IMG/VR virus record: IMGVR_UViG_3300024289_000019
Span: 48,302-112,301 of that record
Origin: a virus
Reading direction: 5' to 3' (one strand)
Length of the DNA: 64,000 bases
The notes beneath the pieces were generated by a model. It saw nothing but the letters and a program-made list of their open reading frames with translations, did not search any database and had not been told where the DNA came from. Of the stretch, positions 17,803-40,285 are shown piece after piece. Numbering within the stretch: position 1 is the first letter of the stretch; the number at the start of each line of letters is the position of its first letter. Both the position numbers and the translations under genes were made by a program.

Positions 17803-17831
17803 TTGACAAGATCTATAAAATTTACTAGAAT
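17803..17831 (+). promoter_or_regulatory. Consensus promoter, leaderless start of the subtilase gene
   Basis: TTGACA (17803-17808), exactly 17 nt, TAGAAT (17826-17831), then 7 nt to the ATG at 17839. Transcription would start at the A of the start codon. Confidence 0.85.
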
Positions 17832-17838
17832 AGTACAC

Positions 17839-28433: not shown

Positions 28434-28648
28434 TATTTCTCCTTTGTTTCTTCCATTATATCAAGAGCCACTGACAAAATGTGGTCACAAGCAGATACCT
28501 GGCCACTCGTCCAATTGTATTCAATATCTAATTCAGCAAAGTCTTTTGAGGCGGGGTCCAAAGCATCCATCTGATTAGATAATTGCTCTAAATCCTGGTT
28601 TAAAGACATTATATGTAGTTTGATATATTCAATTAGTTTATGAGACAT
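28433..28648 (-). CDS. Hypothetical helical protein
   Basis: 71 residues, coiled-coil-like N-terminus (LNQDLEQLSNQMDAL), then YNWTSGQVSACDHILSVALDI. One-base overlap with the next gene. Probable paralogue of 28170-28433. Confidence 0.68.
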   Translation of the reverse strand: MSHKLIEYIKLHIMSLNQDLEQLSNQMDALDPASKDFAELDIEYNWTSGQVSACDHILSVALDIMEETKEK

Positions 28649-28787: not shown

Positions 28788-29028
28788 TAAAATACTCCTC
28801 ATCTTCAGGTGTTAATTCATAGAATAGATTAAACTTAGATTGTAAATATGGGTCTGATGACATTAAAGCAATTTGATAATCTGCATAAAATGTCCCTTCA
28901 TCTAAATTAGAACTATTCCATTGTTCAAATAGATGTTCAGATATTTCAGTAATGACAGCGTCAATTACCATTTGATTCTCATCATCTAAAAATGACCCAC
29001 GGTCATTTAGTTCCAGCCTATCAGCCAT
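28774..29028 (-). CDS. Hypothetical acidic protein
   Basis: 84 residues, acidic (ending LTPEDEEYFNVGL). Overlaps the YubB-like gene by 8 bases. No family recognised. Confidence 0.68.
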   Translation of the reverse strand: MADRLELNDRGSFLDDENQMVIDAVITEISEHLFEQWNSSNLDEGTFYADYQIALMSSDPYLQSKFNLFYELTPEDEEYFNVGL

Positions 29029-29773
29029 TTACTTGCTCCATTCTATAATCAGGGACATGCTCGGAATCCAAGTATATCTTATGGGTCTGACATTCTTTGA
29101 CACAATCAAGGTCTGCCTCGCCTAAATAATTACAAGCAGAGCAAATTTGACCACAATCATTATCGCAATAATCTAATGTATCTTCTGCATCACAATCTCT
29201 ACATTTAGATTCATATTCAGAACCTTCTAATTGTTCACCACGAAGGAACTCGCATTCGCCACCCCAACCTGTCTCTTCTTCATAACTAAGAGTAAATAGG
29301 AGTGCTGGATATTGTGCTGATAATTTAGCAATGGCAGGAAACGGTGGAGACCAAGCAGTATTGAAATTATAATAAACTACAAGGTTCTCTCCATTTTCAG
29401 TAGGACCCTCCATATATGTTTCAGGATATTCATCATCTGAAGATACAGCGACATCCCATTTTGTGCCCCATTCACGAACATTGAATGAATACCAGTCATT
29501 TGTTTGGAATTTCATTTGCTCTTCAATAGGCAATTTATGGTCGGGTTGCTGAAGATACTCATACTCAGTAATACCTGCTTGTAAATGATTATAGATATTA
29601 TGAAAAGCAAATACAGGATTAGGATATGTAGTTTGTTTCTTTTGCATTTGTCCAGTTTCCATGTTCCATGAATCATGGACCTGTGCAAATGGCTTATTCA
29701 ATTGTGCTACTAATGTATTGACAAGTTGTGGATTTCCCTCTATGGTCAATCCGTTATATACCCAGTTCGGCAT
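29021..29773 (-). CDS. YubB/DUF1281-like ferredoxin-fold protein with zinc ribbon
   Basis: 250 residues beginning MPNWVYNGLTIEG, the signature of the YubB (DUF1281) family common on plasmids and phages. AWSPPFPAIAKLSAQYPALLFTLSYEEE is the second conserved part. The C-terminal 60 residues add eight cysteines (CRDCD, DYCDNDCGQICSAC), probably a zinc-binding extension. First gene of an eight-gene early operon under a box promoter at 29804-29826. Function of the family unknown. Confidence 0.75.
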   Translation of the reverse strand: MPNWVYNGLTIEGNPQLVNTLVAQLNKPFAQVHDSWNMETGQMQKKQTTYPNPVFAFHNIYNHLQAGITEYEYLQQPDHKLPIEEQMKFQTNDWYSFNVREWGTKWDVAVSSDDEYPETYMEGPTENGENLVVYYNFNTAWSPPFPAIAKLSAQYPALLFTLSYEEETGWGGECEFLRGEQLEGSEYESKCRDCDAEDTLDYCDNDCGQICSACNYLGEADLDCVKECQTHKIYLDSEHVPDYRMEQVNG

Positions 29774-29803
29774 ATATATTCCTTTCGTTCGGTTATTGGC
29801 ATA

Positions 29804-29826
29804 ATTATAATGCCTACCACCGACAT
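29804..29826 (-). promoter_or_regulatory. Early box promoter for 29773
   Basis: Reading the - strand: ATGTCGGTGG, 7 nt, TATAAT. The leader then carries the AACGAAAGGAA ribosome site. Confidence 0.8.
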
Positions 29827-29963
29827 TTGTCTATATGATGTGGATCACATAAAATGACTAATAGGTTTATTTATCTTATATATTGAGAATTTCAGTGAAT
29901 ATAGTTGACAAACGTAAAAAGATCAATCTATCCTCCGCTTTTACGGGCAGCTATAAAAAAAGC

Positions 29964-29999
29964 GGGGGCCCCAACAGTCTCTCCCTCTGTTGGGCCCCC
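29964..29999 (-). terminator. Rho-independent terminator (- strand)
   Basis: A GC-rich stem (GGGGGCCC...CTGTTGGG region, 13 pairs with one bulge, 12-nt loop), followed on the - strand by GCTTTTTTTATAG. It ends the 31.9-30.1 kb operon. The 29827-30087 interval has no supported gene. Confidence 0.8.
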
Positions 30000-30087
30000 T
30001 GTGTTTGGCTGCATCCACACTATGCATATTTAAAGACTGGGGCGAAAGGAACCCTGAAAGCCTCACCAAACGTTATTTATCATTATA

Positions 30088-30453
30088 TCATACTGAGGCA
30101 GGTTCAAGAGGTGGTACAGTTATACCAGCATGATAAGCGATAAACTCTTCCCATGAATGTCCTTCAACGGTTTTGCCAACCATATCAACATCCACGGTAA
30201 AATCCCAAGCAGCAAAATTGCTAGGTTTAGATACTGCGCCAATGCCATAACCAGTTTCGTCCAGGACCTCATGCTGAATCATATGACTAATAATCATACG
30301 AATGCAATATGGTGTGTCATTCCACCTTGGACGAGCATGTGCTAATGCTGTAGCAAGTTTAACTTGCCATTCATCTTCTCCCCAATGTGAATATAACCAA
30401 ACTGCAGGCTCATTTTCGCCTTCGTTAAAAATATAATTAATTCGTGCTCCCAC
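30088..30453 (-). CDS. Hypothetical protein
   Basis: 121 residues. INYIFNEGENEPAVWLYSHWGEDEW and LATALAHARPRWNDTPYCIRMIISHM are well-ordered alpha/beta segments resembling a widespread uncharacterised actinophage protein. Overlaps the next gene by 17 bases. Confidence 0.72.
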   Translation of the reverse strand: MGARINYIFNEGENEPAVWLYSHWGEDEWQVKLATALAHARPRWNDTPYCIRMIISHMIQHEVLDETGYGIGAVSKPSNFAAWDFTVDVDMVGKTVEGHSWEEFIAYHAGITVPPLEPASV

Positions 30454-30643
30454 TGATTTCCGCCTTTTCTCTAGTGTCCTCTTCGATTTTGTCCAATTCT
30501 ACTACTTCATAGGACCATTTGTCAAGGCCCTCTTTGAACTCGTTGTAGTGGTGTCCACAGAAAAATAAATCTCCAGCTAAACCTTTAGCCTGATACATTG
30601 CTTTTGCTGTAACACATTTATCACAATTTAATCTTTCTGTCAT
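30437..30643 (-). CDS. Actinobacterial-type Cys/His zinc protein (DUF7455-like)
   Basis: 68 residues: NCDKCVTAKAMYQ...LFFCGHHYNEF follows the CxxC...L.FCGHH pattern of a small conserved actinobacterial protein. Adds to the host assignment. Acidic C-terminus. Function unknown. Confidence 0.7.
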   Translation of the reverse strand: MTERLNCDKCVTAKAMYQAKGLAGDLFFCGHHYNEFKEGLDKWSYEVVELDKIEEDTREKAEISGSTN

Positions 30644-30786
30644 AGTTTTCCGCCTTCTATCATGTCTGATAATCTATCTAAGATCCAAGAGTCGATATCG
30701 TTGATGTCAATCTCACGTAATTTCTCCATGATTTCATCACGGGCATATTTGTAACCATCATCCCAACCGCTCTTATAATCTGACAT
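30640..30786 (-). CDS. Acidic miniprotein
   Basis: 48 residues, MSDYKSGWDDGYKYARDEIMEK then helical. The G-W-x-D-G-Y-x-x-A-R pattern recurs in many phage miniproteins. Preceded by AAGGAGA and overlaps the next gene by 4 bases. Confidence 0.6.
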   Translation of the reverse strand: MSDYKSGWDDGYKYARDEIMEKLREIDINDIDSWILDRLSDMIEGGKL

Positions 30787-30788
30787 AT

Positions 30789-31001
30789 TTATCTCCTTGT
30801 GTATCCAGTTTCTTCGTATTCTGATACATAAGTTTCTGTTAAATTAAACTTATCACGAATACGACTTACTTTCTCTATGCTACCAGTTCCAATGTTGAAT
30901 GTCAATGGTGGCATGAAATGTGGGTCCAGTCCAATTACTTGTGCCTCCCAATAGGCCATCTCTAAAGACAGCCTATCAGGAGCGGTAAGTTCAAAGTACA
31001 T
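30789..31001 (-). CDS. Hypothetical protein
   Basis: 70 residues: MYFELTAPDRLSLEMAYWEAQVIG and a C-terminal LTETYVSEYEETGYTRR. One-base overlap with the upstream gene stop. Function unknown. Confidence 0.68.
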   Translation of the reverse strand: MYFELTAPDRLSLEMAYWEAQVIGLDPHFMPPLTFNIGTGSIEKVSRIRDKFNLTETYVSEYEETGYTRR

Positions 31002-31651
31002 TACCAGCGCACATCCGCATCTTCAACATCAAATGATTGAACAACAACATCTCCGTTGTATGCATCAAGAGTTAAAGTATCTTGTAAGAAGTAACGTGCA
31101 TCAAAATCTTCTACGTCCTCCATTGGAATATCGTATTCAACCTCAAATGACATGCTTCCAGTAATACGAACTGTTTGCTTTGGTTCATGACCAAGAATTT
31201 CGCAAAGGTCTCTAAGGACATCTTCCTTTTCAACGTTTGGGTTGTACCAGCCATCAGTATCTAGATTATTAATAATACGACGTATTTGGTCGTTACTAAT
31301 AGTTAGTTGTTTTTCAAGGCGGACCAAGGAATCTAATTTACCTTCTAGGTCCACAGTCTTGATACTTGGGTAAGTTATATCATAACCATTAATAGACTTA
31401 TATGTTGTAAGTGCATTAGGGTTATAGGTCTCAGGGACCGTTGATGTTTCTTGCATTTCTTTCCTTTCGTTAATTGGTGTAATTGTAGCAGGCTCCACCG
31501 ACAAAAGGTTGGGCCTACGTCCACATGGACATGTGACATTCATCACACTTCCAGATGGGAATCCGAATTTATCTGATGATGTTACTTCAATTAAAGTATC
31601 ACATTCATCAGGATCGCATGCATATGTATTTTTAGTCCAGGTTTCTGACAT
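31001..31651 (-). CDS. Fused or nested gene: zinc ribbon plus acidic protein, internal promoter
   Basis: 216 residues as one frame. Residues 1-50 form a zinc ribbon (YACDPDECDTLIEV...VTCPCGRR). Residues about 52-65 are the translation of a box promoter and ribosome site (NLLSVEP...INERKEM). From Met66 (start 31456) a second product of 151 residues begins, with its own ATGTCGG-type promoter at 31482-31504 and AACGAAAGGAA RBS. It includes a helix (LDSLVRLEKQL) and a beta C-terminal half. Two proteins, long and short, are likely; functions unknown. Confidence 0.7.
   Translation of the reverse strand: MSETWTKNTYACDPDECDTLIEVTSSDKFGFPSGSVMNVTCPCGRRPNLLSVEPATITPINERKEMQETSTVPETYNPNALTTYKSINGYDITYPSIKTVDLEGKLDSLVRLEKQLTISNDQIRRIINNLDTDGWYNPNVEKEDVLRDLCEILGHEPKQTVRITGSMSFEVEYDIPMEDVEDFDARYFLQDTLTLDAYNGDVVVQSFDVEDADVRW
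31482..31504 (-). promoter_or_regulatory. Early box promoter inside the 31001-31651 frame
   Basis: TTGTCGGTGG, 7 nt, TACAAT on the - strand, followed by the AACGAAAGG site and the internal ATG at 31456. Confidence 0.75.
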
Positions 31652-31872
31652 TAGACATCCGCCATTTGCTTGTGGTATGCTTTGAGGTCCATAACATTAA
31701 TGTTAAGTTCCTCTTCAGGGTACTCATTAATCAAGAAGTTTAATGCTTCTCCTGCTGACTTAAAGTCAGTATAATTAGTTGAATAACCATATCCATATAT
31801 GGTTGCTTCCCAGCAGTCTACCCCTCCAGGAGAGACAGAATATTCCATTTCATATATCTGTGCGTTTATCAT
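31651..31872 (-). CDS. Hypothetical beta-rich protein, leaderless
   Basis: 73 residues from the ATG at 31872, chosen because it lies 7 nt after a -10 TATAAT (an upstream start at 31902 would lie inside the promoter). EYSVSPGGVDCWEATIYGYG is beta-prone; the end is helical. First gene of the 31.9-30.1 kb operon. Confidence 0.68.
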   Translation of the reverse strand: MINAQIYEMEYSVSPGGVDCWEATIYGYGYSTNYTDFKSAGEALNFLINEYPEEELNINVMDLKAYHKQMADV

Positions 31873-31879
31873 GGCCCAA

Positions 31880-31902
31880 ATTATACACGAGACGACTGAC
31901 AT
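31880..31902 (-). promoter_or_regulatory. Early box promoter (variant), leaderless
   Basis: ATGTCAGTCG, 7 nt, TATAAT (- strand), then 7 nt to ATG 31872. Confidence 0.7.
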
Positions 31903-32021
31903 TTACAAGCATTTCCAGGGATTTTTTCTAGATTCCCGTATTATCTACATCACATCCGTAAAAGCTCTGGGCGATCCTTAGTATATTGCGGGCGTCTCAT
32001 TATGTGAAACATTTTATCTTG

Positions 32022-32096
32022 CGATGCGTACGGGATTTGAACCCGTGATCTCCACAGTGACAGTGTGGTGAAATAACCAAGCTATTCTAACGCACC
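32022..32096 (-). tRNA. tRNA-Asp (GTC)
   Basis: On the - strand: acceptor GGTGCGT/ACGCATC with one G-U pair, anticodon arm CCACA-CTGTCAC-TGTGG (anticodon GTC), T arm ACGGG-TTCAAAT-CCCGT. The D arm GAAT/ATTT is weak. Only tRNA on the leftward strand; probably co-transcribed with or processed from neighbouring RNA. Confidence 0.88.
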
Positions 32097-32105
32097 AAAT
32101 AAAAA

Positions 32106-32127
32106 CGGGGGAGATTTATCTCCCCCG
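32106..32127 (-). terminator. Rho-independent terminator after the DUF932-like gene
   Basis: CGGGGGAGAT-(TT)-ATCTCCCCCG, followed on the - strand by TTTTTATTT. Confidence 0.85.
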
Positions 32128-32141
32128 CTAGTTTATCATTC

Positions 32142-33146
32142 TTAGAATGATTTTACTAACTTGAGAAGTTTATTTTTCTCAGCAGTAAGAATTGGGTCAA
32201 AGCCACTCGCACCCGCCATTAGCGTTTCAGAATTGCCACGACCAGAACGGAAATAATCAAGGCGTTCAGTAAGCGCATTGAAAGCACCCCATTTTGTTCC
32301 CTTGATATTAGCGTTAGTTGGTGAGTTATGATAAAGTTCATCAATCAAGATAACTTTATTTTCCCACTTTTTCAAAGCACCCTTAGCGTCTTTTTCAGGC
32401 TTAGGATAAATTGTGCGAATTAGTTTAGAGAATTCGGCATCAGTAATTTCCTGCTTGAAAAGTTCCTGCGCTTCTTTCTCGAATTCATCAAAGTATCCAA
32501 GAGCAAGACCCAAAGTTTCACGAGCAACTTGAATTCTGCCTTCGACAGATTGAGTATGGCGAATTTTGAATGATTGCTTAGCATTACGCATAGCAAGATT
32601 CAAAGTGTTTTGGCATACAACACGAACAGGTGTAATTGCTGCCTGAACAGCAACAGAACCATCATGTGAAGTCCATACGATTAGATAAAGTTTTGTTTGG
32701 TCATTAGCACCTTGTGGGTCTAACACCATAGTTCTAGGAACATCAACAGTTCCGAAAACTACTTTACCATTTTTGAGAGAACCAGCAGATTCCCAGCGAC
32801 ACTCAGGGTTAGCATCATGAATGTTATCTGCGAAAGCAAATAATTCTTCATTCTGAACAGGCTTGTATCGCTTACCAACAGTAGCGAGAACATCAGTTCC
32901 ACCATTGAATGGATTTGTGCGAATAACTAACTGAGCGTTAGATACATCATTCCAAGATTCTGAAATGTGGTCGGTCAATGGAGATAAGCGAACATTCCAA
33001 TTAGAAAGTTTTGCTTCATCGAGCATTGTTTGAGTAGTTACATTTTCATCTTGATTGAAAATGCGATTAGCGAGATTGTGCCATGCGGGTTTTCCACGCA
33101 AAGCAAAGGCAACTTCGTTGCCATTTGTTTCTAGGTTATGAGCCAT
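32142..33146 (-). CDS. DUF932 / phage-plasmid-like protein
   Basis: 334 residues beginning MAHNLETNGNEVAFALRGKPAWHNL, the signature of DUF932 (TIGR03299) proteins found on plasmids and phages. TTQTMLDEAKLSNW and GTKWGAFNALTERLDYF are further conserved segments. Some relatives sit near replication or anti-restriction genes; molecular function is not established. Driven by the box promoter at 33180-33202, ended by a strong terminator: a monocistronic unit. Confidence 0.82.
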   Translation of the reverse strand: MAHNLETNGNEVAFALRGKPAWHNLANRIFNQDENVTTQTMLDEAKLSNWNVRLSPLTDHISESWNDVSNAQLVIRTNPFNGGTDVLATVGKRYKPVQNEELFAFADNIHDANPECRWESAGSLKNGKVVFGTVDVPRTMVLDPQGANDQTKLYLIVWTSHDGSVAVQAAITPVRVVCQNTLNLAMRNAKQSFKIRHTQSVEGRIQVARETLGLALGYFDEFEKEAQELFKQEITDAEFSKLIRTIYPKPEKDAKGALKKWENKVILIDELYHNSPTNANIKGTKWGAFNALTERLDYFRSGRGNSETLMAGASGFDPILTAEKNKLLKLVKSF

Positions 33147-33179
33147 AGATTTTTCCTTTCATTAGTTAGATTGAGCCTA

Positions 33180-33202
33180 AGTATAACAGACCCCACCGAC
33201 AT
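33180..33202 (-). promoter_or_regulatory. Early box promoter for 33146
   Basis: ATGTCGGTGG, 7 nt, TATACT (- strand). A TGTGA-N6-TCATA palindrome lies upstream at 33241-33256. Confidence 0.8.
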
Positions 33203-33261
33203 TGTAAATAGTTAGATAGACATTGTGGGCAAATCGGACATGTGATCAATATCATAAATTC

Positions 33262-33299
33262 CTGTGGTTATCCACAGTTTGCCGTAACGCTGTGGATAA
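33262..33299. other. Inverted pair of DnaA-box-like sequences (candidate origin element)
   Basis: TTATCCACA (33268-33276) and its inverse TGTGGATAA (33291-33299), 14 nt apart, both perfect matches to the bacterial DnaA box TTATNCACA. The first is part of the palindrome CTGTGG-TTAT-CCACAG (33262-33277). A third TTATCCACA lies at 35359-35367, with TGTGGAAAA at 35382-35390. Confidence 0.6.
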
Positions 33300-33300
33300 C

Positions 33301-33318
33301 CCCGCAAGTTGTTGCGGG
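33301..33318 (-). terminator. Hairpin of the CCCGCA/TGCGGG family
   Basis: CCCGCAA-GTTG-TTGCGGG. Related hairpins occur at 35392-35408, 36892-36908 and 38944-38963, each between leftward transcription units. T-runs are short (GTT to GTTTT), so termination is likely but not certain. Confidence 0.55.
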
Positions 33319-33385
33319 CCACAAGATCGGGGAAGCTGGGGCGGGAATCTAGATGATTACACAGTTCAAACCCGCCCCAAGATTA

Positions 33386-33568
33386 TTACTTACCGACTTT
33401 TACCATAGCATAACGCAAACCGCTGCCAGTATCTAATCTTAATTTAGTTAGATTAGGTCTGATAGAAATTATTTCGCTAATAGTGCCAGTAATTCCTGAT
33501 TTACCAGTTGTAAAAACATCGCCTTTGCGATAGAAGCGACCTTTCTTGGTATCTAGAATTGGTGACAT
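33386..33568 (-). CDS. Small beta-barrel (SH3/KOW-like) protein, copy 1
   Basis: 60 residues: YRKGDVFTTGKSGITGTISEI and KLRLDTGSGLRYAMVKVGK, a short all-beta pattern. Clearly related to 34140-34319 (KVGDLFTTLKSKKTGVIKEI), so the two are diverged copies. May bind nucleic acid or protein; function unknown. Confidence 0.68.
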   Translation of the reverse strand: MSPILDTKKGRFYRKGDVFTTGKSGITGTISEIISIRPNLTKLRLDTGSGLRYAMVKVGK

Positions 33569-33633
33569 TTTATTTCCTTTCGTTTGTTGGTTGGTGAGTA
33601 GTTTATAGTCATACTCAGGACTTTGTTCGTTAT

Positions 33634-34056
33634 TTATAGATAACGAGCAATAGCGTTGTAAGTAGAAGTAGAAACTACTTCCTCATCGGTCATCTTGAGA
33701 ATACGAATAGCGTTCTCAATCTCCTCTACCATTTCGTTATACTGCCAATCGTGGAAAGTCTGAAAGTCTTTCTTTGGTTCAGCAGGTAGTTCAATAGCAT
33801 TAGCAGGAAGGTAGAAATCTACATTTATCCTTCCGTCATAACGCTTGTTAGCAGACAAGTTTTCTGCCTTAGAGATAGCAGTTAGAGCAAGTTTAGCGAC
33901 TTCCTTGTTCCACTTCTCTTGGGCTTTCTCAAACTTAGCCTCGTTAGTTGCTTGGTTCTCTCTATCCTTTTGGAGTTGAGCGAGTTTTGTTTCTAAGGCT
34001 TTGATAACCTTAGTTGTAGCGATTTTTACATTTATCGCTTTTCCGTTTCTTGCCAT
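33634..34056 (-). CDS. Hypothetical coiled-coil protein
   Basis: 140 residues. Basic N-terminus, a long coiled coil (ALETKLAQLQKDRENQATNE to about residue 70), a short beta segment (YDGRINVDFYLP) and a helical acidic end. Own box promoter at 34093-34115. Function unknown. Confidence 0.7.
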   Translation of the reverse strand: MARNGKAINVKIATTKVIKALETKLAQLQKDRENQATNEAKFEKAQEKWNKEVAKLALTAISKAENLSANKRYDGRINVDFYLPANAIELPAEPKKDFQTFHDWQYNEMVEEIENAIRILKMTDEEVVSTSTYNAIARYL

Positions 34057-34092
34057 TTATTTATTTTCCTTTCGTTGTTTGTTTGGGAGTTT

Positions 34093-34115
34093 ATTATAGC
34101 AGGGACTACCGACAT
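34093..34115 (-). promoter_or_regulatory. Early box promoter for 34056
   Basis: ATGTCGGTAG, 7 nt, TATAAT (- strand). Confidence 0.8.
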
Positions 34116-34139
34116 TTTCGGTAATCCCTGCTTGTCTAT

Positions 34140-34319
34140 TTAGTTAGATAGACTTTCCGCTGAGATGGTTGTCCAGCGAGTTTCTTTTGTTGGTAGTTCC
34201 AACAAAACACGCACCGAGCCAGATGCGTTAGGCACAATCTCTTTGATTACGCCTGTTTTCTTTGACTTTAGGGTGGTGAATAAATCGCCAACCTTGTAAG
34301 TATAACCATTTATGGTCAT
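34140..34319 (-). CDS. Small beta-barrel (SH3/KOW-like) protein, copy 2
   Basis: 59 residues, MTINGYTYKVGDLFTTLKS then a beta-rich end with TRWTTISAESL. Diverged copy of 33386-33568. Own box promoter and GAAAGGAAG RBS. Confidence 0.65.
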   Translation of the reverse strand: MTINGYTYKVGDLFTTLKSKKTGVIKEIVPNASGSVRVLLELPTKETRWTTISAESLSN

Positions 34320-34350
34320 TTTGCTTCCTTTCTGTTAGTAGTTGGGTTGT

Positions 34351-34373
34351 ATTTTAGCATACCCCACCGACAA
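34351..34373 (-). promoter_or_regulatory. Early box promoter for 34319
   Basis: TTGTCGGTGG, 7 nt, TAAAAT (- strand); palindrome GGTGTGA-N6-TCACACC 15 bp upstream (34389-34408). Confidence 0.75.
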
Positions 34374-34388
34374 TCGGCAAGGTATAGC

Positions 34389-34408
34389 GGTGTGAGATTA
34401 GTCACACC
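34389..34408. promoter_or_regulatory. CRP-like palindrome
   Basis: GGTGTGA-GATTAG-TCACACC. It includes the stop codon of 34398-34664 in its centre, so it may be an operator for the downstream box promoter or a weak 3' hairpin. Confidence 0.6.
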
Positions 34409-34664
34409 AAGCCTCTAGGTGGTGCTGTTCGATAATAGCCCATGCGGGTGCGGTATCTCTGCCTTTATAGGATACGCCTTCGGGCATTGGTATCTCACGA
34501 TCAGTTTCGCCCTCATCATAAGCAAAAATAGCCTCAATACAAGGTTCTACCATGCTAGTAGGAACGGGCGGGTAATGATTAGCAGTTAGATGAATTGAGA
34601 TAGCAGTAGATAAATCTAATCCTAAATCATAGTCAGCTAAATCGTGTGCGAAATTACTTCCCAT
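34398..34664 (-). CDS. Conserved hypothetical phage protein
   Basis: 88 residues: LADYDLGLDLSTAISIHLTANHYPPVP and VEPCIEAIFAYDEGETDREI, then DTAPAWAIIEQHHLEAW. Resembles an uncharacterised actinophage early protein. Overlaps the upstream gene by 11 bases. Confidence 0.68.
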   Translation of the reverse strand: MGSNFAHDLADYDLGLDLSTAISIHLTANHYPPVPTSMVEPCIEAIFAYDEGETDREIPMPEGVSYKGRDTAPAWAIIEQHHLEAWCD

Positions 34665-34935
34665 TATTTTCCTCCAATACTGAGTTTTTCATTTGTTCCA
34701 TTTCGTCAATAGTTTCGATTAGTTCCCTGAATTGTGTTTCAGTTAGTAATACTTTAGTAATTTTATCAGTTGTAGCAGAAGCAATAGCAGTAGCATACAT
34801 AAACATAGCCCTAGCGAATTGTTCTTGGTCTAAGTCATGGCGAGAATGGACAATAAAAGAAGCGAGTTCCATTTGTTCATCGCCAATAATTCCCTCTTGA
34901 GTAGCCTCAAGTAGAGCAGAAGCAGTAGATAACAT
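34654..34935 (-). CDS. Hypothetical helical protein
   Basis: 93 residues, wholly helical and acidic, with a hydrophobic FARAMFMYATAIASATT core. Own box promoter (34966-34988). Function unknown. Confidence 0.68.
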   Translation of the reverse strand: MLSTASALLEATQEGIIGDEQMELASFIVHSRHDLDQEQFARAMFMYATAIASATTDKITKVLLTETQFRELIETIDEMEQMKNSVLEENNGK

Positions 34936-34965
34936 TTATTTCCTTTCGTTGTGGTAGTGGGCTAG

Positions 34966-34988
34966 ATTATACACTAGCCCACCGACAT
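34966..34988 (-). promoter_or_regulatory. Early box promoter for 34935
   Basis: ATGTCGGTGG, 7 nt, TATAAT (- strand). Confidence 0.82.
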
Positions 34989-34990
34989 TA

Positions 34991-35245
34991 TTAGGCTAGG
35001 GCTAAGATAGCCTGAGAAGCACCGTCATTTACACGGGCGAGTTCTGCCTCTAACTCATTACGAGTAAATTTGGCAGGATTACCGATAAGTTCTGATACCA
35101 TGCGAGAATTTTCCTCAACAAAGATACCTGCGGGCAGGCGCTTTACTGCTGAATAGAAAGAGCCTTGTGGGTCAAGCATAGAAACAAATTCTACGCCTGC
35201 AACGGAGAATGGGTACTTTACCCAGTTAGTTGTATCTAAAGACAT
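34991..35245 (-). CDS. Hypothetical protein
   Basis: 84 residues: YPFSVAGVEFVSMLDPQGSF, then helical FTRNELEAELARV. AACGAAAGGAA RBS and own box promoter. Function unknown. Confidence 0.68.
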   Translation of the reverse strand: MSLDTTNWVKYPFSVAGVEFVSMLDPQGSFYSAVKRLPAGIFVEENSRMVSELIGNPAKFTRNELEAELARVNDGASQAILALA

Positions 35246-35277
35246 TTATTTTCCTTTCGTTTGTCGTTAGACTAGGA

Positions 35278-35300
35278 ATTATACACGAAGCCTGCGACAT
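35278..35300 (-). promoter_or_regulatory. Early box promoter (variant) for 35245
   Basis: ATGTCGCAGG, 7 nt, TATAAT (- strand). Upstream in order: CGGCGTGTCG complement (35316-35325) and TGTGA-N6-TCACA (35332-35347). Confidence 0.78.
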
Positions 35301-35315
35301 TTTACATTTGAGTAT

Positions 35316-35408
35316 CGGCGTGTCGGGCATTTGTGAGATTTCTCACAAAATCCCGTGATTATCCACAGGCCCACTTAAACATGTGGAAAACCCCGCACAT
35401 ACTGCGGG
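35316..35408. other. Intergenic regulatory cassette with DnaA box and hairpin
   Basis: In order: CGGCGTGTCG (35316-35325), palindrome TGTGA-GATTTC-TCACA (35332-35347), DnaA-like TTATCCACA (35359-35367), TGTGGAAAA (35382-35390), hairpin CCCGCA-N5-TGCGGG (35392-35408). No ORF. The layout parallels 33241-33318. Confidence 0.65.
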
Positions 35409-35504
35409 CCTTTTATATTTTAAAAAATAAATATAAAAATAAAAGTAACGGAGAAATTAAAAAACCGATAAAGATCAACGTTGTCAGAGCTGCAAAAAAT
35501 TCTA

Positions 35505-36227
35505 TCATTTTTTACTCGCAGAAAATCTAACATCCGCTTTACCGTACACACATAAGCCGCATGATACGCATGCGCTGCCATTGGTGGAGATAAGTGGAAT
35601 TTGTTTATTATTTTCAGGACATTTTGCACCAGGCTTACCAATTAATTCTTTCATAGTATTTTCGGTGACTGCAAAAGTTTTACCTAGATACGCTAATTTA
35701 ATTCCAGAATTATTTTTGCGTAAGTCATGAGCAATTTCTTTATTCTCATCATCGGTAGAAAAATAAAGAGAGAGGTTAGAAATATCCTTAAGGATAAGCG
35801 CTGCAGACTTTACACGAGTATATACCCAAAATTGCACATCGGGATTATTTTGGATAACCGCTTTCCACGCATATGCATAGGTATCATTAAAGAAATCGCC
35901 ATCCCAGTGTATACGGAATAACTTTTCTGCATTACGCTTTTCACAATCTGCAACAAAATCAGCAATCATATCGCTAAGCAATAGAGACATGGTATCCATA
36001 TCTGCATTGCGTAGCAATTCCCAGTTATGCAGAAGAGTATTCTTTACTCCTTTGTATACTCTTTCAAGTTTTCCTGCATAGCAAACGCTTTCACAAACAC
36101 TAGTGGCACCAGGACACGAGAAATCTTTTCCAGCAGGTAATCCAAAAGTGTTAGCGATTGTTGGGGTTTTTCCATTTTTTGAGACAGCATTAGCGACCTT
36201 CCTATCATTAGACCTTTTTAGTTTCAT
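35505..36227 (-). CDS. GP88-like phage protein
   Basis: 240 residues. NTFGLPAGKDFSCPGATSVC and ESVCYAGKLERVY are the conserved start of the phage GP88-type family; FRIHWDGDFFNDTYAYAW and a C-terminal CPENNKQIPL...ACVSCGLC (four cysteines) follow. Cysteines at both ends suggest a metal centre. Function not established. Own box promoter. Confidence 0.78.
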   Translation of the reverse strand: MKLKRSNDRKVANAVSKNGKTPTIANTFGLPAGKDFSCPGATSVCESVCYAGKLERVYKGVKNTLLHNWELLRNADMDTMSLLLSDMIADFVADCEKRNAEKLFRIHWDGDFFNDTYAYAWKAVIQNNPDVQFWVYTRVKSAALILKDISNLSLYFSTDDENKEIAHDLRKNNSGIKLAYLGKTFAVTENTMKELIGKPGAKCPENNKQIPLISTNGSACVSCGLCVYGKADVRFSASKK

Positions 36228-36251
36228 TATACACCTTTCGTTATGGGCCCT

Positions 36252-36274
36252 ATTGTAGCAGGGCCCACCGACAT
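36252..36274 (-). promoter_or_regulatory. Early box promoter for 36227
   Basis: ATGTCGGTGG, 7 nt, TACAAT (- strand). Confidence 0.8.
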
Positions 36275-36275
36275 T

Positions 36276-36773
36276 TTACCAAGAGGACTGATAGTAGTAG
36301 GATAAATCCTTATACTCATCATTTTCTACTAGTGGGGCTATCTGCTTGATAGTGTCCTTGATATCAGACCAATAGTATTCATCGATATCATATGAGCCGA
36401 AAAAGAAACCAGCAGACGGCATTAGTTCGCTAGGGTCTTTCTTGAATAAGGCTTGACGGCAGGTAGTAAGTAATTCTTTTAGTTTATCACGAGATACATA
36501 GTATTCACCGCAATTATCTTCACCGCCTTGTACATTATCGACAAACCATTTGTGTATCTGATTAGCCTTACGCCAATACGCCACATTTACGCTAACATCT
36601 ACGCCATAGATACTTTCAGTATCTACAAGAGTATCAACACCAGCAGCATTTACTACATCATTCCATTGTGGATAAGTTGCAGCAGAGTATTTAGTGTCTA
36701 AATCTCTATCTAATTTAGACCAGTCAATTTTAGCAATATGCTTACGAGCAGAGAGGTACATATCTAAACCCAT
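36276..36773 (-). CDS. Conserved hypothetical phage protein (MGLDMYL family)
   Basis: 165 residues starting MGLDMYLSARKHIAK, a start shared by an uncharacterised family in many phages. VNVAYWRKANQIHKWFVDNVQGGEDNCGEYYV is the conserved middle; the end has an acidic FFFGSYDIDEYYWSDIKDT segment. Function unknown. Box promoter at 36805-36827. Confidence 0.75.
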   Translation of the reverse strand: MGLDMYLSARKHIAKIDWSKLDRDLDTKYSAATYPQWNDVVNAAGVDTLVDTESIYGVDVSVNVAYWRKANQIHKWFVDNVQGGEDNCGEYYVSRDKLKELLTTCRQALFKKDPSELMPSAGFFFGSYDIDEYYWSDIKDTIKQIAPLVENDEYKDLSYYYQSSW

Positions 36774-36804
36774 TATTTTATTCCTTTCGTTAGGTTAGGC
36801 TGCT

Positions 36805-36827
36805 ATTATAGCGGAAGCCACCGACAA
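36805..36827 (-). promoter_or_regulatory. Early box promoter for 36773
   Basis: TTGTCGGTGG, 7 nt, TATAAT (- strand). Upstream: CGACACGCCG (36834-36843), palindrome TGTGA-AAAAAA-TCACA (36854-36869), a second CGACACGCCC (36879-36888), hairpin CCCGCA/TGCGGG (36892-36908). Confidence 0.82.
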
Positions 36828-36924
36828 ATTCCACGACACGCCGAAAAAATTCCTGTGAAAAAAATCACATCTACTTAACGACACGCCCGACCCCGCAAGA
36901 TCTGCGGGCTTGTTGAAATTTCAA

Positions 36925-37071
36925 CTAATCCCAATTAGTTTTCAAACCAGCTGCGGTTTTTTTATGTTTTGTTTTTCTTGAATAAATTTTTTTAGATTTT
37001 ATTGGCGTTGCGGCATTTGACCTCCGCAATTCCAAAATTCTTTTTATTCTTTCTTTATTTGGTAATTTCAT
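36925..37071 (-). CDS. Basic miniprotein
   Basis: 48 residues, very basic (KERIKRILELRRSNAA, KSKKIYSRKTKHKKT): likely nucleic-acid or ribosome binding. Overlaps the start region of the upstream gene's end by 4 bases. No family. Confidence 0.55.
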   Translation of the reverse strand: MKLPNKERIKRILELRRSNAATPIKSKKIYSRKTKHKKTAAGLKTNWD

Positions 37072-37259
37072 TTTGTTCCTAACTTTGGTAATTTGTAATT
37101 TGAAGCGTCATAGAATTTATTTGCGTCAAATCTTGGATTATCTTTCGCAAACATTTCCGCAAAATCTATAACCATTTTTGAAAAAACGGCTGGGTGAGTT
37201 TTATCGCTAACATAGTTTAGAATTTTAGCGGTTTCAACATAGTGTTTTTTAGATGTCAT
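37068..37259 (-). CDS. Conserved small phage protein
   Basis: 63 residues: KKHYVETAKILNYVSDKTHP...FAEMFAKDNPRFDANKFYDAS is a helical pattern seen in small uncharacterised phage proteins. Overlaps both neighbours by 4 bases. Confidence 0.68.
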   Translation of the reverse strand: MTSKKHYVETAKILNYVSDKTHPAVFSKMVIDFAEMFAKDNPRFDANKFYDASNYKLPKLGTK

Positions 37260-37462
37260 TTTTCCACGACCCTTCTGCCTTCACGATAAAAGATTTTGGT
37301 ATAGCATTTTCCGCTAGGTGTGTAGAGATTTACAGTTGAGTAATCCATAGCAAATCCCCAATCCACATAACTAGCAAAACTCTTGTGAGCCTCTAGTTCA
37401 TCAGCGATTTGTTGTGTGAAGTGTGGAGAATTTTCATCATAAGCAACAGTTATTTTATACAT
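37256..37462 (-). CDS. Hypothetical protein
   Basis: 68 residues, alpha/beta; VDWGFAMDYSTVNLYTPSGKCYTKIF is beta-rich. One-base overlap upstream. Function unknown. Confidence 0.68.
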   Translation of the reverse strand: MYKITVAYDENSPHFTQQIADELEAHKSFASYVDWGFAMDYSTVNLYTPSGKCYTKIFYREGRRVVEK

Positions 37463-37683
37463 TAGTTAGCCTCCTGAGTAGCAAAAATTGAAAGTTCATT
37501 TTCGGAAAGCAATCCGTTATCCCAAATCACATCTCCGTCATTATCTAAAATAAGTTCATAGGGATTACACTCGCAAGTTTCATAGTCAAAATAATCCTCG
37601 CCATTTCCCCAATAAATAGCACCCATACCACGACAGGCATCACAATTTTTTATTGCTCTTAGAGCAGTTTCAAGTTTATCCAT
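37462..37683 (-). CDS. CxxCxGxG-type zinc protein, copy 1
   Basis: 73 residues: NCDACRGMGAIYWGNGEDYFDYETCEC gives a DnaJ-like CxxCxGxG knuckle paired with CxC. Clearly related to the 39-residue protein at 39428-39547 (ECDECNGVGLIFWGND...ETCEC). Box promoter 37707-37729 lies inside the upstream coding sequence. Confidence 0.68.
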   Translation of the reverse strand: MDKLETALRAIKNCDACRGMGAIYWGNGEDYFDYETCECNPYELILDNDGDVIWDNGLLSENELSIFATQEAN

Positions 37684-37792
37684 TTTCTTTTTCCTTTCTT
37701 TCTTGAATTGTAGCAGTTAGCACCGACAACGCTTCCGCCTTAGAGGCTTCACGCTGGGCGTTGATAAAGTTTCTGAATTCGATCAAATCCAT
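37676..37792 (-). CDS. Miniprotein whose coding end contains the next gene's promoter
   Basis: 38 residues. The C-terminal part LSVLTATIQERKEKENG is encoded by the TTGTCGGTGC box, TACAAT -10 and GAAAGGAAA ribosome site of gene 37683. It has its own box promoter (37821-37843) and AACGAAAGGAA RBS, so it is probably a real gene. Confidence 0.6.
   Translation of the reverse strand: MDLIEFRNFINAQREASKAEALSVLTATIQERKEKENG
37707..37729 (-). promoter_or_regulatory. Early box promoter for 37683, inside upstream gene
   Basis: TTGTCGGTGC, 7 nt, TACAAT (- strand). Confidence 0.72.
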
Positions 37793-37820
37793 TTTAGTTT
37801 TCCTTTCGTTTATTGGTTAG

Positions 37821-37843
37821 ATTATAGCGGAAGCCACCGACAT
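37821..37843 (-). promoter_or_regulatory. Early box promoter for 37792
   Basis: ATGTCGGTGG, 7 nt, TATAAT (- strand); identical core to the 36805 promoter (CTTCCGC spacer). Confidence 0.82.
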
Positions 37844-38056
37844 TTAGTCGGGAAGCCTAACCGCAACAGTAGCCCACTCATCTTTGAGCGAACCCGTAGG
37901 GCGGTAGCGAATTGAATAGGCTTCGTAGCCCTCAGATAAATAGACATCATCTCGCTTTTCCGCAAAGTTGATAATTCCGCCATTGTATCTCCTACGCATA
38001 GAAGTAGGCGCATAGTATTGGTCAATTAGTAAATCAACAATAGAATATGAACGCAT
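37844..38056 (-). CDS. Hypothetical beta-rich protein, copy 1
   Basis: 70 residues: YSIVDLLIDQYYAPTSMRRR...GYEAYSIRYRP...WATVAVRLP. Aligns with 39709-39903 (YSIENLLVGKTYRSRSVEG...EAYLVEIRK...SVAVSV): duplicated family. Possibly a small beta-barrel. Its stop abuts a box promoter. Confidence 0.68.
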   Translation of the reverse strand: MRSYSIVDLLIDQYYAPTSMRRRYNGGIINFAEKRDDVYLSEGYEAYSIRYRPTGSLKDEWATVAVRLPD

Positions 38057-38190
38057 TATCCTAGTATCCTTTCTCCATAGTAATTCTCAAAATCAGCAAT
38101 AGTCATCAGACCTTTATACTCATTACAAAATCCGCAGAATTTAGTATCCGCAGAGTATTCAGTTTCGCAGAAGCAACAAATTAGTTTCAT
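38056..38190 (-). CDS. Zinc-ribbon miniprotein
   Basis: 44 residues: ICCFCETEYSADTKFCGFCNEYKG is a compact two-knuckle zinc ribbon; a helical tail follows. Box promoter 38221-38243; one-base overlap with the next gene. Confidence 0.65.
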   Translation of the reverse strand: MKLICCFCETEYSADTKFCGFCNEYKGLMTIADFENYYGERILG

Positions 38191-38220
38191 TTAGTTATCC
38201 TTTCTAACTTTCTTGGCGAA

Positions 38221-38243
38221 AGTTTATCAGAAAGCACCGACAT
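38221..38243 (-). promoter_or_regulatory. Early box promoter for 38190
   Basis: ATGTCGGTGC, 7 nt, TAAACT (- strand). Upstream: CGGCGTGTCG (38280-38289) and two palindromes (38290-38305, 38315-38330). Confidence 0.72.
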
Positions 38244-38279
38244 TTTCAAATCCAAATCGTAATTTCTCAAATAGTAAGA

Positions 38280-38330
38280 CGGCGTGTCGTGTGATAAAAA
38301 TCACAAATTTTTTTTGTGATAAATCTCACA
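38280..38330. promoter_or_regulatory. Tandem CRP-like palindromes with CGGCGTGTCG box
   Basis: CGGCGTGTCG (38280-38289), TGTGA-TAAAAA-TCACA (38290-38305) and TGTGA-TAAATC-TCACA (38315-38330). The two palindromes are 25 bp apart centre to centre. No ORF in 38191-38423. Confidence 0.68.
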
Positions 38331-38423
38331 AAATTCCCGTGATTTTTAAAATTGGACATAAAAGACAAATCGCCCCCACACTACGTACGGGCGTGATCGA
38401 GCTTTGTCAAGACGACACGCCGC

Positions 38424-38591
38424 TTAGGCGGTGTGAGTTGCCTCACATTCCGCAGAGCATTCGGCGGGAAGGCTAAAGAGATACTTTAGCAGAGCCTTAC
38501 GCTCAGACATAGATATTTCAGGGTGATATTGTTTTACACCACCATGTTGATATTCAAAGATGATTTTATCTAAAGTTTTTTTAGTTAGCAT
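38424..38591 (-). CDS. Hypothetical small protein
   Basis: 55 residues: LTKKTLDKIIFEYQHGGVKQYHPEISMSERKAL, ending with ECSAECEATHTA (Cys, His cluster). The last codons run through a TGTGA-N6-TCACA palindrome (38432-38447), with CGACACGCCG (38413-38422) just past the stop. Confidence 0.62.
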   Translation of the reverse strand: MLTKKTLDKIIFEYQHGGVKQYHPEISMSERKALLKYLFSLPAECSAECEATHTA

Positions 38592-38787
38592 TTACTTTAT
38601 TCCTTTCTAAATCTTTATGTGCGTAGTAGCAACGCATTTCGTGAAGTCTAATCCACTTTGAGATTTGAAATCTTGAACAGATGTAGCATTTATGCCACTT
38701 TTGTTTTAGCCAAATTTTATTGTTATCTGAATTGTATAAATCCAACATTGTGTGTTGTTTTTCGCATTTACATTTTTTGTTAGTCAT
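38581..38787 (-). CDS. Cys-rich zinc-binding protein
   Basis: 68 residues: KKCKCEKQH, HKCYICSRFQ and MRCYYAH give several Cys/His ligands, in a basic protein. Overlaps the next gene by 11 bases. Box promoter at 38824-38846. Confidence 0.68.
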   Translation of the reverse strand: MTNKKCKCEKQHTMLDLYNSDNNKIWLKQKWHKCYICSRFQISKWIRLHEMRCYYAHKDLERNKVNAN

Positions 38788-38823
38788 TTTCTAAACCAAC
38801 CTTTCTAACTTTCTAATAACTGA

Positions 38824-38846
38824 AGTCTAGCAGGGGGGTCTGACAT
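38824..38846 (-). promoter_or_regulatory. Early box promoter (variant) for 38787
   Basis: ATGTCAGACC, 7 nt, TAGACT (- strand). Palindrome TGTGA-TTTACA-CCACA (38886-38901) and hairpin 38944-38963 upstream; CGACACGCCG at 38984-38993. Confidence 0.62.
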
Positions 38847-39001
38847 TCTACTGACCAGTATGCGTACAAATCGGACATTTCGTTTTGTGATTTACACCAC
38901 ATTTTCCAGGCATTTAGACAAAACGGACATAAGGGTACAAAACGCCCGCAAAAGACTGCGGGCAGCTGCCGATTTTGTCAAATCGACACGCCGCTTTTAT
39001 T

Positions 39002-39094
39002 TTATTTTTTTATTTCTTTTGTTGCCAATCTGATCGTGTAAATTACGCTAAGAATTAGCGCAATTTGAACAGCGGAAGTTAGAAGTCTATTCAT
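39002..39094 (-). CDS. Single-TM miniprotein
   Basis: 30 residues: MNRLLTSAVQIALILSVIYTIRLATKEIKK, one helix with a basic tail. One-base overlap with the gene upstream. Small but in a tight operon. Confidence 0.5.
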   Translation of the reverse strand: MNRLLTSAVQIALILSVIYTIRLATKEIKK

Positions 39095-39273
39095 TAGAAC
39101 ATTTCACCGCTTTCTAGTAGAGCATCAAACTCAGCATCAATTTCTTTTTCTAGCAGAACATCAAGAGAGATTTCATCTGCCTCATCATCAAAGTATTCAT
39201 TTACTACATAACTATCTTGAATACTTTCATATTTATATTCACTAGGGTTTCTTTCCCAACTCATAGCATACAT
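39094..39273 (-). CDS. Acidic hypothetical protein
   Basis: 59 residues, very acidic (EYFDDEADEISLDVLLEKEID), a DNA-mimic-like charge pattern. Promoter (39302-39324) lies inside the upstream gene. RBS GAAAGGAAA. Confidence 0.62.
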   Translation of the reverse strand: MYAMSWERNPSEYKYESIQDSYVVNEYFDDEADEISLDVLLEKEIDAEFDALLESGEMF

Positions 39274-39276
39274 TAT

Positions 39277-39426
39277 TTATTTTCCTTTCTTATTGCGGTA
39301 AATCTTATACGCTACCACCGACAAAATAACTAGACCTAGACCTAGCCAAGAAGCGTAGAAATCAAATTGAGCGGTCTCAAAGGCAATTCCATCTGACCCT
39401 AATTCTATTAGTAAGTATCTATCCAT
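39277..39426 (-). CDS. Single-TM protein; coding end carries the next promoter
   Basis: 49 residues: LGLGLVILSVVAYKIY is a TM helix; its codons LSVVAYK overlay the TTGTCGGTGG box and TAAGAT -10 of gene 39273, and NKKGK overlays the GAAAGGAAA site. An AAAGGAG-type site precedes its start. Confidence 0.55.
   Translation of the reverse strand: MDRYLLIELGSDGIAFETAQFDFYASWLGLGLVILSVVAYKIYRNKKGK
39302..39324 (-). promoter_or_regulatory. Early box promoter for 39273, inside upstream gene
   Basis: TTGTCGGTGG, 7 nt, TAAGAT (- strand). Confidence 0.72.
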
Positions 39427-39427
39427 T

Positions 39428-39547
39428 TTAGTTATTCTCCTTTATACATTCGCAAGTTTCTACATCATAGTCTAAGTCATTACCCCAAAAGATAAGACCT
39501 ACGCCATTACATTCATCACATTCAATTCTAGTTAGAGAGTTTATCAT
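39428..39547 (-). CDS. CxxCxGxG-type zinc miniprotein, copy 2
   Basis: 39 residues: IECDECNGVGLIFWGNDLDY then ETCECIKENN. Shortened copy of 37462-37683. AACGAAAGGAA RBS; expressed from the 39653-39675 promoter through an unusual repeat-bearing leader. Confidence 0.62.
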   Translation of the reverse strand: MINSLTRIECDECNGVGLIFWGNDLDYDVETCECIKENN

Positions 39548-39572
39548 TTATTTATTTCCTTTCGTTAGTGTG

Positions 39573-39633
39573 ATAGTAGGTCTTATTTGCTAGGCTCACC
39601 TTTCGGATTATTTGCTAGGCTCATACCTACTAT
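39573..39633 (-). repeat. Leader stem-loop enclosing a 16-bp direct repeat
   Basis: Inverted arms ATAGTAGGT (39573-39581) and ACCTACTAT (39625-39633) enclose two copies of TTATTTGCTAGGCTCA (39583-39598, 39608-39623), 25 bp apart. In the leader mRNA the first copy can be read as a 13-codon peptide starting ATGAGCCTAGCAAAT; the second begins GTGAGCCTAGCAAAT. Confidence 0.7.
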
Positions 39634-39652
39634 TCAATTTTGTTATGTCGTT

Positions 39653-39675
39653 AGACTATCAGACCTGACCGACAT
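39653..39675 (-). promoter_or_regulatory. Early box promoter for 39547
   Basis: ATGTCGGTCA, 7 nt, TAGTCT (- strand); CGACACGCCG (39684-39693) and palindrome TGTGA-CTTATG-CCACA (39703-39718) upstream. Confidence 0.65.
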
Positions 39676-39708
39676 TTTCAAGCCGACACGCCGAAGCGTG
39701 GGTGTGAC

Positions 39709-39903
39709 TTATGCCACACTTACCGCTACTGAGCGGTAGGTATAACCTCCGCCATTCTTACGGATTTCTACAAGATACGCCTCAGCGTTTTCATACCATA
39801 CACAAGACGGATGTTTTTCAGCCGATACGATTTCGCCCTCAACGGAGCGGGAACGATAAGTTTTACCTACTAGGAGGTTTTCGATAGAGTATAGATTAGC
39901 CAT
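39709..39903 (-). CDS. Hypothetical beta-rich protein, copy 2
   Basis: 64 residues, related to 37844-38056 (see there). AAGGAGA RBS. A TTGAAA-17-AATAAT promoter without the box lies upstream at about 39929-39957. Its stop codon sits inside the 39703-39718 palindrome. Confidence 0.66.
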   Translation of the reverse strand: MANLYSIENLLVGKTYRSRSVEGEIVSAEKHPSCVWYENAEAYLVEIRKNGGGYTYRSVAVSVA

Positions 39904-39996
39904 TATGGTAATCTCCTTTCATTAAGTTAATCGGTATTATTTCAGATTTATTAAGTTTTTTCAAGTCGACACGCCGTTAAGAGAGTGTGATTTGTA

Positions 39997-40089
39997 TCAC
40001 TTGTGGATACAATCACTTTCAATCTCATGACCGAATTCATCTACTAATTCTTCATAGATTTCATCTAGATAATCAAGATAATCAGACAT
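39997..40089 (-). CDS. Acidic miniprotein
   Basis: 30 residues, MSDYLDYLDEIYEELVDEFGHE..., helical and very acidic. Box promoter at 40115-40137 and AAAGGAGA RBS support translation. Its stop codon lies in the palindrome 39986-40001. Confidence 0.52.
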   Translation of the reverse strand: MSDYLDYLDEIYEELVDEFGHEIESDCIHK

Positions 40090-40114
40090 TATTTCTCCTT
40101 TCATTATGTATAGA

Positions 40115-40137
40115 ATACTAACATAGACCACCGACAT
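40115..40137 (-). promoter_or_regulatory. Early box promoter for 40089
   Basis: ATGTCGGTGG, 7 nt, TAGTAT (- strand). Upstream GGGCGTGTCG (40153-40162) and TGTGA-GATACC-TCACA (40175-40190). Confidence 0.78.
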
Positions 40138-40285
40138 TTTGACCCGTTTTTCGGGCGTGTCGCAAAACTATTTTTGTGAGATACCTCACATTATGGGCGC
40201 ACTATCTATTTTTAAAAAATTTTAAAATAACGTGTATCATACAAATTAAAAATATATTAACATTTTAGAAAAATGAAATTACTAG
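40138..40285. other. Intergenic divergence region
   Basis: Holds the CGGCGTGTC-type box, the palindrome 40175-40190 and an AT-only tract (40201-40262). The leftward early block starts here; a rightward small gene starts at 40323. No supported ORF. Confidence 0.6.

Follow-up and report, generated by a model that had tools for sequence, protein, structure and literature searches.

The LexA-independent DNA-damage promoters of mycobacteria (RecA-NDp) have the consensus tTGTCRgtg, followed after 8 nt by TannnT (PMC5656591). PafBC, a heterodimer of WYL-domain proteins, is activated by single-stranded DNA (ssDNA) of 6–12 nt and acts by ‘sigma adaptation’, with PafB on the ‘-26 motif’ and PafC on domain 4 of sigma-A (PMC11804915). 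Here we describe an array of such sites, one before almost every gene of a compact block, in a phage from lake water that has many relatives with the same feature (IMG/VR virus record IMGVR_UViG_3300024289_000019, 112,301 bases), with coordinates given in a window of 64,000 nt that forms positions 48,302–112,301 of the record. Judged from sequence comparison, the 19 sites of this array are very probably promoters of the host housekeeping RNA polymerase that depend on the host DNA-damage activator PafBC.

The initial annotation listed 17 minus-strand sites at 29804–40137, each made of a box, 7 nt and a hexamer; all are present, and TGTC is kept in 17/17. When the whole record was scanned with a weight matrix, these 17 were recovered together with two more (28455–28476 and 29071–29092), giving 19 matrix sites in 112 kb, every one on the minus strand and within 28455–40136, a box-bearing stretch of 11.7 kb. 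The 608 non-redundant sites behind the matrix came almost entirely from related phages, with the window's own near-identical records still among them; with this matrix the 19 sites scored 18.3–34.0 bits, against 8.1 for the next best real site and 14.2 for the best of four shuffles. The strict pattern TGTCRGTG-N8-TAnnnT was observed 13 times in the window where 0.07 matches were expected, and a looser, one-mismatch pattern gave 14 matches on one strand, none on the other and none in a reversed control. Beyond the box-bearing block, the rest of the contig held one stray match. Each of the 17 sites lies closely 5' of a start codon, mostly by way of GAAAGGA, and as some boxes overlap the 3' end of the upstream open reading frame, ‘intergenic’ is not strictly the right word for them. 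The gene behind the site at 31880 probably yields a leaderless transcript, with its ATG at the predicted start.

Across the 608 non-redundant sites the consensus is aaaTGTCRGTGG-N4-TGn-TATAAT, with A (55%) or G (44%) at box position 5 and a frequent extended -10 (TGn). At the predicted +1, 7 nt past the hexamer, 61% of sites have A, and 78% have a pyrimidine at -1. Core, A/G position and 8-nt gap all equal those of the published consensus, and the gap is present at all 19 window sites. The box had been described as phage-specific and unlike any familiar sequence, a view that must be given up as it is the known RecA-NDp/PafBC motif, present at recA in actinobacteria; its placement at about -29 to -20, also noted in the initial annotation, corresponds to the PafBC -26 position. 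The motif precedes recA in 4/4 actinobacterial genomes examined, reading TTGTCGGTGG-tgcgttc-TAGTCT in Mycolicibacterium neoaurum, where the box is identical to the phage's, and TGTCAGACC in Lentzea, as at phage position 38845. Among 395 Actinomycetes genomes, TGTCRGTG-N8-TAnAAT gave more than 90 matches versus one match for a reversed-pattern control.

In sharing TGTCRGTG, the 8-nt gap and TAnnnT, the phage sites resemble the RecA-NDp/PafBC promoters of Mycobacterium tuberculosis, M. smegmatis and the Streptomyces recA P1 type, and like these they are non-palindromic and usually lack a -35 element. They differ in their number (19 copies in 12 kb), their better -10 hexamers and extended -10, their upstream CRP-type palindromes, the lack of a LexA box, and the genes behind them, which are of unknown function rather than repair genes. 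LexA control of the block was considered and dropped, as the record contains no CGAACN4GTTCG box. Phage genes under host LexA/SOS control likewise wire phage expression to the host DNA-damage response, but there the regulator is a repressor, typically in prophage induction, whereas here a LexA-independent activator would serve an entire gene block of a phage that appears to be lytic.

The comparison with MotA-type activation (activator plus sigma) drawn in the initial annotation is mechanistically apt, given that PafBC acts by ‘sigma adaptation’ (PMC11804915). T4 middle promoters (MotA/AsiA sigma appropriation) share with the phage array a short box near the -10, a protein bridge to sigma region 4 replacing the -35, and organisation as a phage regulon; they differ in box sequence, position and activator, which for the array is apparently a host protein, no phage homologue having been found. 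The box is presumably unlike the T4 MotA box, and no MotA-like family occurs among the phage proteins scanned (part of the proteome). The phage does encode a WhiB protein (15636–15947), which had been put forward as the reader of the box. Nothing connects this WhiB to the box, for which host PafBC, found in 16/16 candidate-host genomes, is the natural reader. No WYL domain is encoded in the 112-kb record, and therefore host PafBC, not phage WhiB, most likely recognises the box. A phage-encoded reader was rejected as a candidate, the record having neither a WYL domain nor a CRP-type helix-turn-helix and its WhiB no close bacterial relative.

The same arrangement recurs in related viruses. Their 80 loci (1.3 Mb) contain 650 copies of TGTCRGTG, 623 on the gene-sense strand versus 27 on the opposite one, and TA..[AC]T stands exactly 8 nt after the box in 608 of the 623, a sharp peak; apparent spacings of 3, 10, 11, 13 and 14 are overlapping second TA..[AC]T matches with the same geometry. 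The initial view of a promoter class with constant geometry is supported. Arrays were also found in contigs with one or few detectable shared genes (nine sites in L145, 11 in L152), hence the box may be used by more than one phage lineage.

Of 119 relatives, reaching as low as 51% protein identity, 114 keep the box at the orthologous DUF932 promoter. Among those classed as box-less, the distant relative L159 has a clean TTGACA-17-GATAAT, L096 and L171 still show the box with a GATAAT hexamer outside the accepted pattern, and L190 and L205 have degenerate boxes. The promoters of L159, L096, L168 and L171 form a natural conversion series, with canonical types, hybrids that have both TTGACA and the box, and types with the box only. 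Throughout the relatives, ~17% of boxes are accompanied by a -35 close to the consensus at a distance of 17 or 18 bp, versus ≤0.2% at control offsets. These hybrids, together with the TTGnnn-TAGACT promoters of Streptomyces phage Jay2Jay, suggest that ordinary sigma-A promoters gained the box and afterwards mostly lost the -35.

In Jay2Jay (Stanwilliamsviridae, Boydwoodruffvirinae) the homologue of this block is found in a direct terminal repeat of 11,438 bp whose two copies are 100% identical. Both phages have the same minus-strand small-gene block, followed by transglycosylase, glycosyltransferase and ribonucleotide reductase genes, but the Jay2Jay block carries neither the box array nor CRP-type palindromes, and its promoters resemble TTGnnn-17/18 nt-TAGACT. 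Intergenic CCCTTCGGGG hairpins, then CCGGACA and TTGnnn-TAGACT promoters, stand 5' of most of its genes (NC_029098, 1–11000), which is a different promoter module in a homologous block.

A second layer was detected upstream of the boxes in the form of palindromes matching the GlxR consensus TGTGA-N6-TCACA (PMC7999487). With one mismatch at most, 13 occur at 26–41 kb versus 0.47 expected. Among the relatives, 242 of 604 boxes (~40%) have such a palindrome within 200 nt upstream, with 267 hits versus four for a scrambled control, and relative to the predicted start the palindrome centres fall at -54, -64, -74, -85 and -94, forming a ladder of ~10 bp. Actinobacterial GlxR/CRP class I promoters have the same palindrome at whole helical turns upstream, to which the phage adds the PafBC box. 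One strong CRP-family gene (PF13545) was found in 16/16 candidate-host genomes and none in the 112-kb phage record, so the PafBC and CRP inputs would both be host proteins.

An actinobacterial host is likely because the phage carries a WhiB gene and its block is syntenic with that of Jay2Jay. The likely host type is a group of small Nanopelagicales-like genomes, a single order with genomes of 1.2–2.2 Mb and local stretches of 41–50% GC (guanine plus cytosine), values that suggest ‘Ca. Nanopelagicales’. Of 61 such genomes, 59 have the motif (about 181 occurrences versus about 52 in the control), and pafB-pafC lie in tandem in 16/16 tested. Their recA is preceded by TTGTCAGTGG-cgcctgc-TACCTT and then the LexA box CGAACAgaTGTTCG, a dual control known in M. 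tuberculosis. Rhodopsin-bearing small genomes were set aside as candidate hosts, the motif being missing there. Published work predicts WhiB-bearing freshwater actinophages and isolates of such hosts (PMC6802176; PMC10202952), with promoters not mentioned in PMC6802176. The carD gene of the small Nanopelagicales-like genomes (L351–L355) carries TGTCRGTGA-tggctgg-TAGAAT 24 nt 5' of its start codon, which suggests that it too is under PafBC control.

From these comparisons we infer the host, binding by PafBC and CRP, triggering by ssDNA in the infected cell and expression at an early stage. At each site the TGTC[A/G]GTGG box near -26 would be the contact for PafB. PafC, substituting for a -35 element, would keep sigma-A region 4 in position, and melting of the TATAAT-like hexamer, which often has an extended -10 TGn, would fall to sigma-A region 2. 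Since ssDNA activates PafBC, the block of small phage genes would switch on when ssDNA is exposed, whether from entering phage DNA with resected ends or from replication, recombination or host-DNA breakdown. If the ends of linear phage DNA are resected in the cell, PafBC would sense the ssDNA right beside the block genes. A host CRP/GlxR-family protein at whole helical turns upstream would provide the second input at ~40% of sites. Synteny suggests that the block comprises early genes, as the initial annotation had supposed, and this fits the terminal-repeat position in Jay2Jay. For the freshwater actinophage clade as a whole we propose, tentatively and at slightly under an even chance, a terminal-repeat-type block under a two-input host gate, in which PafBC (responding to ssDNA from phage ends or replication) and a metabolic regulator of the cyclic AMP (cAMP)/CRP type act together and the host's broken-DNA alarm becomes the phage's start signal.

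Several observations weigh against this interpretation. The initial statement that no normal -35 is present holds for the 15 of 19 sites without a 5/6 match to TTGACA and fails for the other four (39674, 38242, 33201 and 29825), where such a match stands 17 or 18 bp from the hexamer; as in ~17% of relatives' boxes, box and -35-like hexamer coexist, which would allow activity of some promoters in the absence of PafBC, or a modulating rather than activating role of the box. The -10 hexamers are better than at many host PafBC promoters, which makes basal activity possible. Class I CRP sites of the E. coli type stand ~3 bp nearer to the start than the palindrome centres do. Transfer RNA (tRNA) similarity, with best matches of 81–88% spread over several orders, does not decide between hosts; an actinobacterial host is suggested by the Stanwilliamsviridae-like gene block and WhiB. 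Lastly, no box array was found in the nine cultured actinophages sampled: the box is absent from Jay2Jay, MindFlayer, Ankus, Trixie, AnarQue, Madraxi, A3Wally and Brent, and Mandalore has one plausible copy.

PafBC sites could also respond to DNA damage in a host that is infected already, or stalled, as under ultraviolet light in surface water, and not to the start of infection, much as LexA-controlled phage genes do. PafBC is a DNA-damage activator, and the phage has RecA-, RuvC- and Cas4-exonuclease-like genes of its own; however, the dense small-gene array has its homologue in a terminal repeat, where immediate-early genes usually reside, and no integrase was seen among the proteins scanned, and we consider this timing unlikely. 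It is quite improbable that a phage-encoded factor, WhiB or an unannotated small protein, reads the box and resembles PafBC through the same docking against sigma-A. The WhiB gene, the many block genes of no known family and a box whose copies are cleaner and more numerous than those of hosts would suit such a factor, but it would have had to converge on the 8-base core, A/G wobble and 8-nt gap of the host motif, and on the variant TGTCAGACC found at a host recA promoter. For WhiB proteins, moreover, which operate at sigma region 4, the upstream DNA is AT-rich and not a GC-rich box at -26. Still more doubtful is a repressor operator placed between the -35 and -10 of ordinary sigma-A promoters: sites combining the box with a TTGACA-like -35 at 17–18 bp, and the canonical, box-less TTGACA/GATAAT promoter of L159 at the orthologous place, speak for it, but over 80% of boxes have no -35, the invariant -10 distance and fixed orientation are unneeded for a repressor site, and the sequence is a known activator motif. 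Chance or a composition artefact can be dismissed given 13 strict matches versus 0.07 expected and 608 non-redundant sites in relatives.

While the box sequence is already known as the actinobacterial PafBC motif, it would here form a phage regulon in which DNA-damage promoters of the host type are combined with phased CRP sites; in open-licence papers (subscription papers and preprints being outside our scope) a phage early regulon using the host's ssDNA-sensing DNA-damage switch is apparently unreported. If host PafBC does drive the array, these phages use the alarm of the host's repair system to trigger transcription, loss of PafBC by the host becomes a route to phage resistance, and abundant freshwater actinobacteria gain a phage early-gene signature searchable in any metagenome. 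The sites also form a natural library of more than 600 distinct promoters for studying PafBC specificity and its interplay with CRP.

Table 1. Predicted PafBC-type promoters, genes behind them and CRP/GlxR-type palindromes (window coordinates; promoter sequences as box-spacer-hexamer).
Feature	Position	Strand	Sequence	Remark
PafBC-type promoter	40115..40136	-	TGTCGGTGG-tctatgt-TAGTAT	26.5 bits
PafBC-type promoter	39653..39674	-	TGTCGGTCA-ggtctga-TAGTCT	-35-like TTGAAA
PafBC-type promoter	39302..39323	-	TGTCGGTGG-tagcgta-TAAGAT	
PafBC-type promoter, variant box	38824..38845	-	TGTCAGACC-cccctgc-TAGACT	same variant at Lentzea recA promoter (L295)
PafBC-type promoter	38221..38242	-	TGTCGGTGC-tttctga-TAAACT	-35-like TTGAAA
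PafBC-type promoter	37821..37842	-	TGTCGGTGG-cttccgc-TATAAT	34.0 bits
PafBC-type promoter	37707..37728	-	TGTCGGTGC-taactgc-TACAAT	
PafBC-type promoter	36805..36826	-	TGTCGGTGG-cttccgc-TATAAT	
PafBC-type promoter of Gp88-family gene	36252..36273	-	TGTCGGTGG-gccctgc-TACAAT	
PafBC-type promoter	35278..35299	-	TGTCGCAGG-cttcgtg-TATAAT	
PafBC-type promoter	34966..34987	-	TGTCGGTGG-gctagtg-TATAAT	
PafBC-type promoter	34351..34372	-	TGTCGGTGG-ggtatgc-TAAAAT	
PafBC-type promoter	34093..34114	-	TGTCGGTAG-tccctgc-TATAAT	
PafBC-type promoter of DUF932 gene	33180..33201	-	TGTCGGTGG-ggtctgt-TATACT	-35-like TTTACA
PafBC-type promoter	31880..31901	-	TGTCAGTCG-tctcgtg-TATAAT	ATG 7 nt past hexamer
PafBC-type promoter	31482..31503	-	TGTCGGTGG-agcctgc-TACAAT	
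PafBC-type promoter	29804..29825	-	TGTCGGTGG-taggcat-TATAAT	
PafBC-type promoter, additional	29071..29092	-	TGTCAGACC-cataaga-TATACT	absent from first list; 19.3 bits
PafBC-type promoter, additional	28455..28476	-	TGTCAGTGG-ctcttga-TATAAT	absent from first list
DUF932 gene	32142..33146	-		behind site 33180; homologue in Jay2Jay terminal repeat
Gp88-family gene	35505..36227	-		behind site 36252
CRP/GlxR-type palindrome	29834..29849			1 mismatch
CRP/GlxR-type palindrome	31532..31547			perfect
CRP/GlxR-type palindrome	33241..33256			1 mismatch
CRP/GlxR-type palindrome	34391..34406			perfect
CRP/GlxR-type palindrome	35332..35347			perfect
CRP/GlxR-type palindrome	36854..36869			perfect
CRP/GlxR-type palindromes (two)	38290..38330			both perfect
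CRP/GlxR-type palindrome	38432..38447			perfect
CRP/GlxR-type palindrome	38886..38901			1 mismatch
CRP/GlxR-type palindrome	39703..39718			1 mismatch
CRP/GlxR-type palindrome	39986..40001			1 mismatch
CRP/GlxR-type palindrome	40175..40190			perfect

Other repeats were observed near the promoters. DnaA-box-like TTATCCACAG inverted pairs lie at 33250–33310 and 35360–35400 on the minus strand and also in the upstream regions of relatives, where GTTATCCACA is strongly over-represented 5' of the boxes; these elements are possibly a replication origin or terminator hairpins. GGCGTGTCG and CGACACGCC are repeated upstream of boxes (at 39970, 39685, 39000, 38425, 36890, 35320 and 40160), with favoured positions in the relatives near -41, -50 and -83 from the start. 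A tRNA-Asp gene is located within the small-gene block (32021–32096, minus strand).

Elsewhere, the phage carries a recombination-rich replication set comprising RecA-like, Cas4-type exonuclease, RuvC-like and large DNA polymerase III alpha genes (window 2531–3529, 4713–5522, 5781–6347 and -1604 to 1668). Genes for a tryptophan halogenase, Hsp20, S-adenosylmethionine decarboxylase and a subtilase were also detected (window 20670–22256, 10340–10765, 25973–26467 and 17803–18765).

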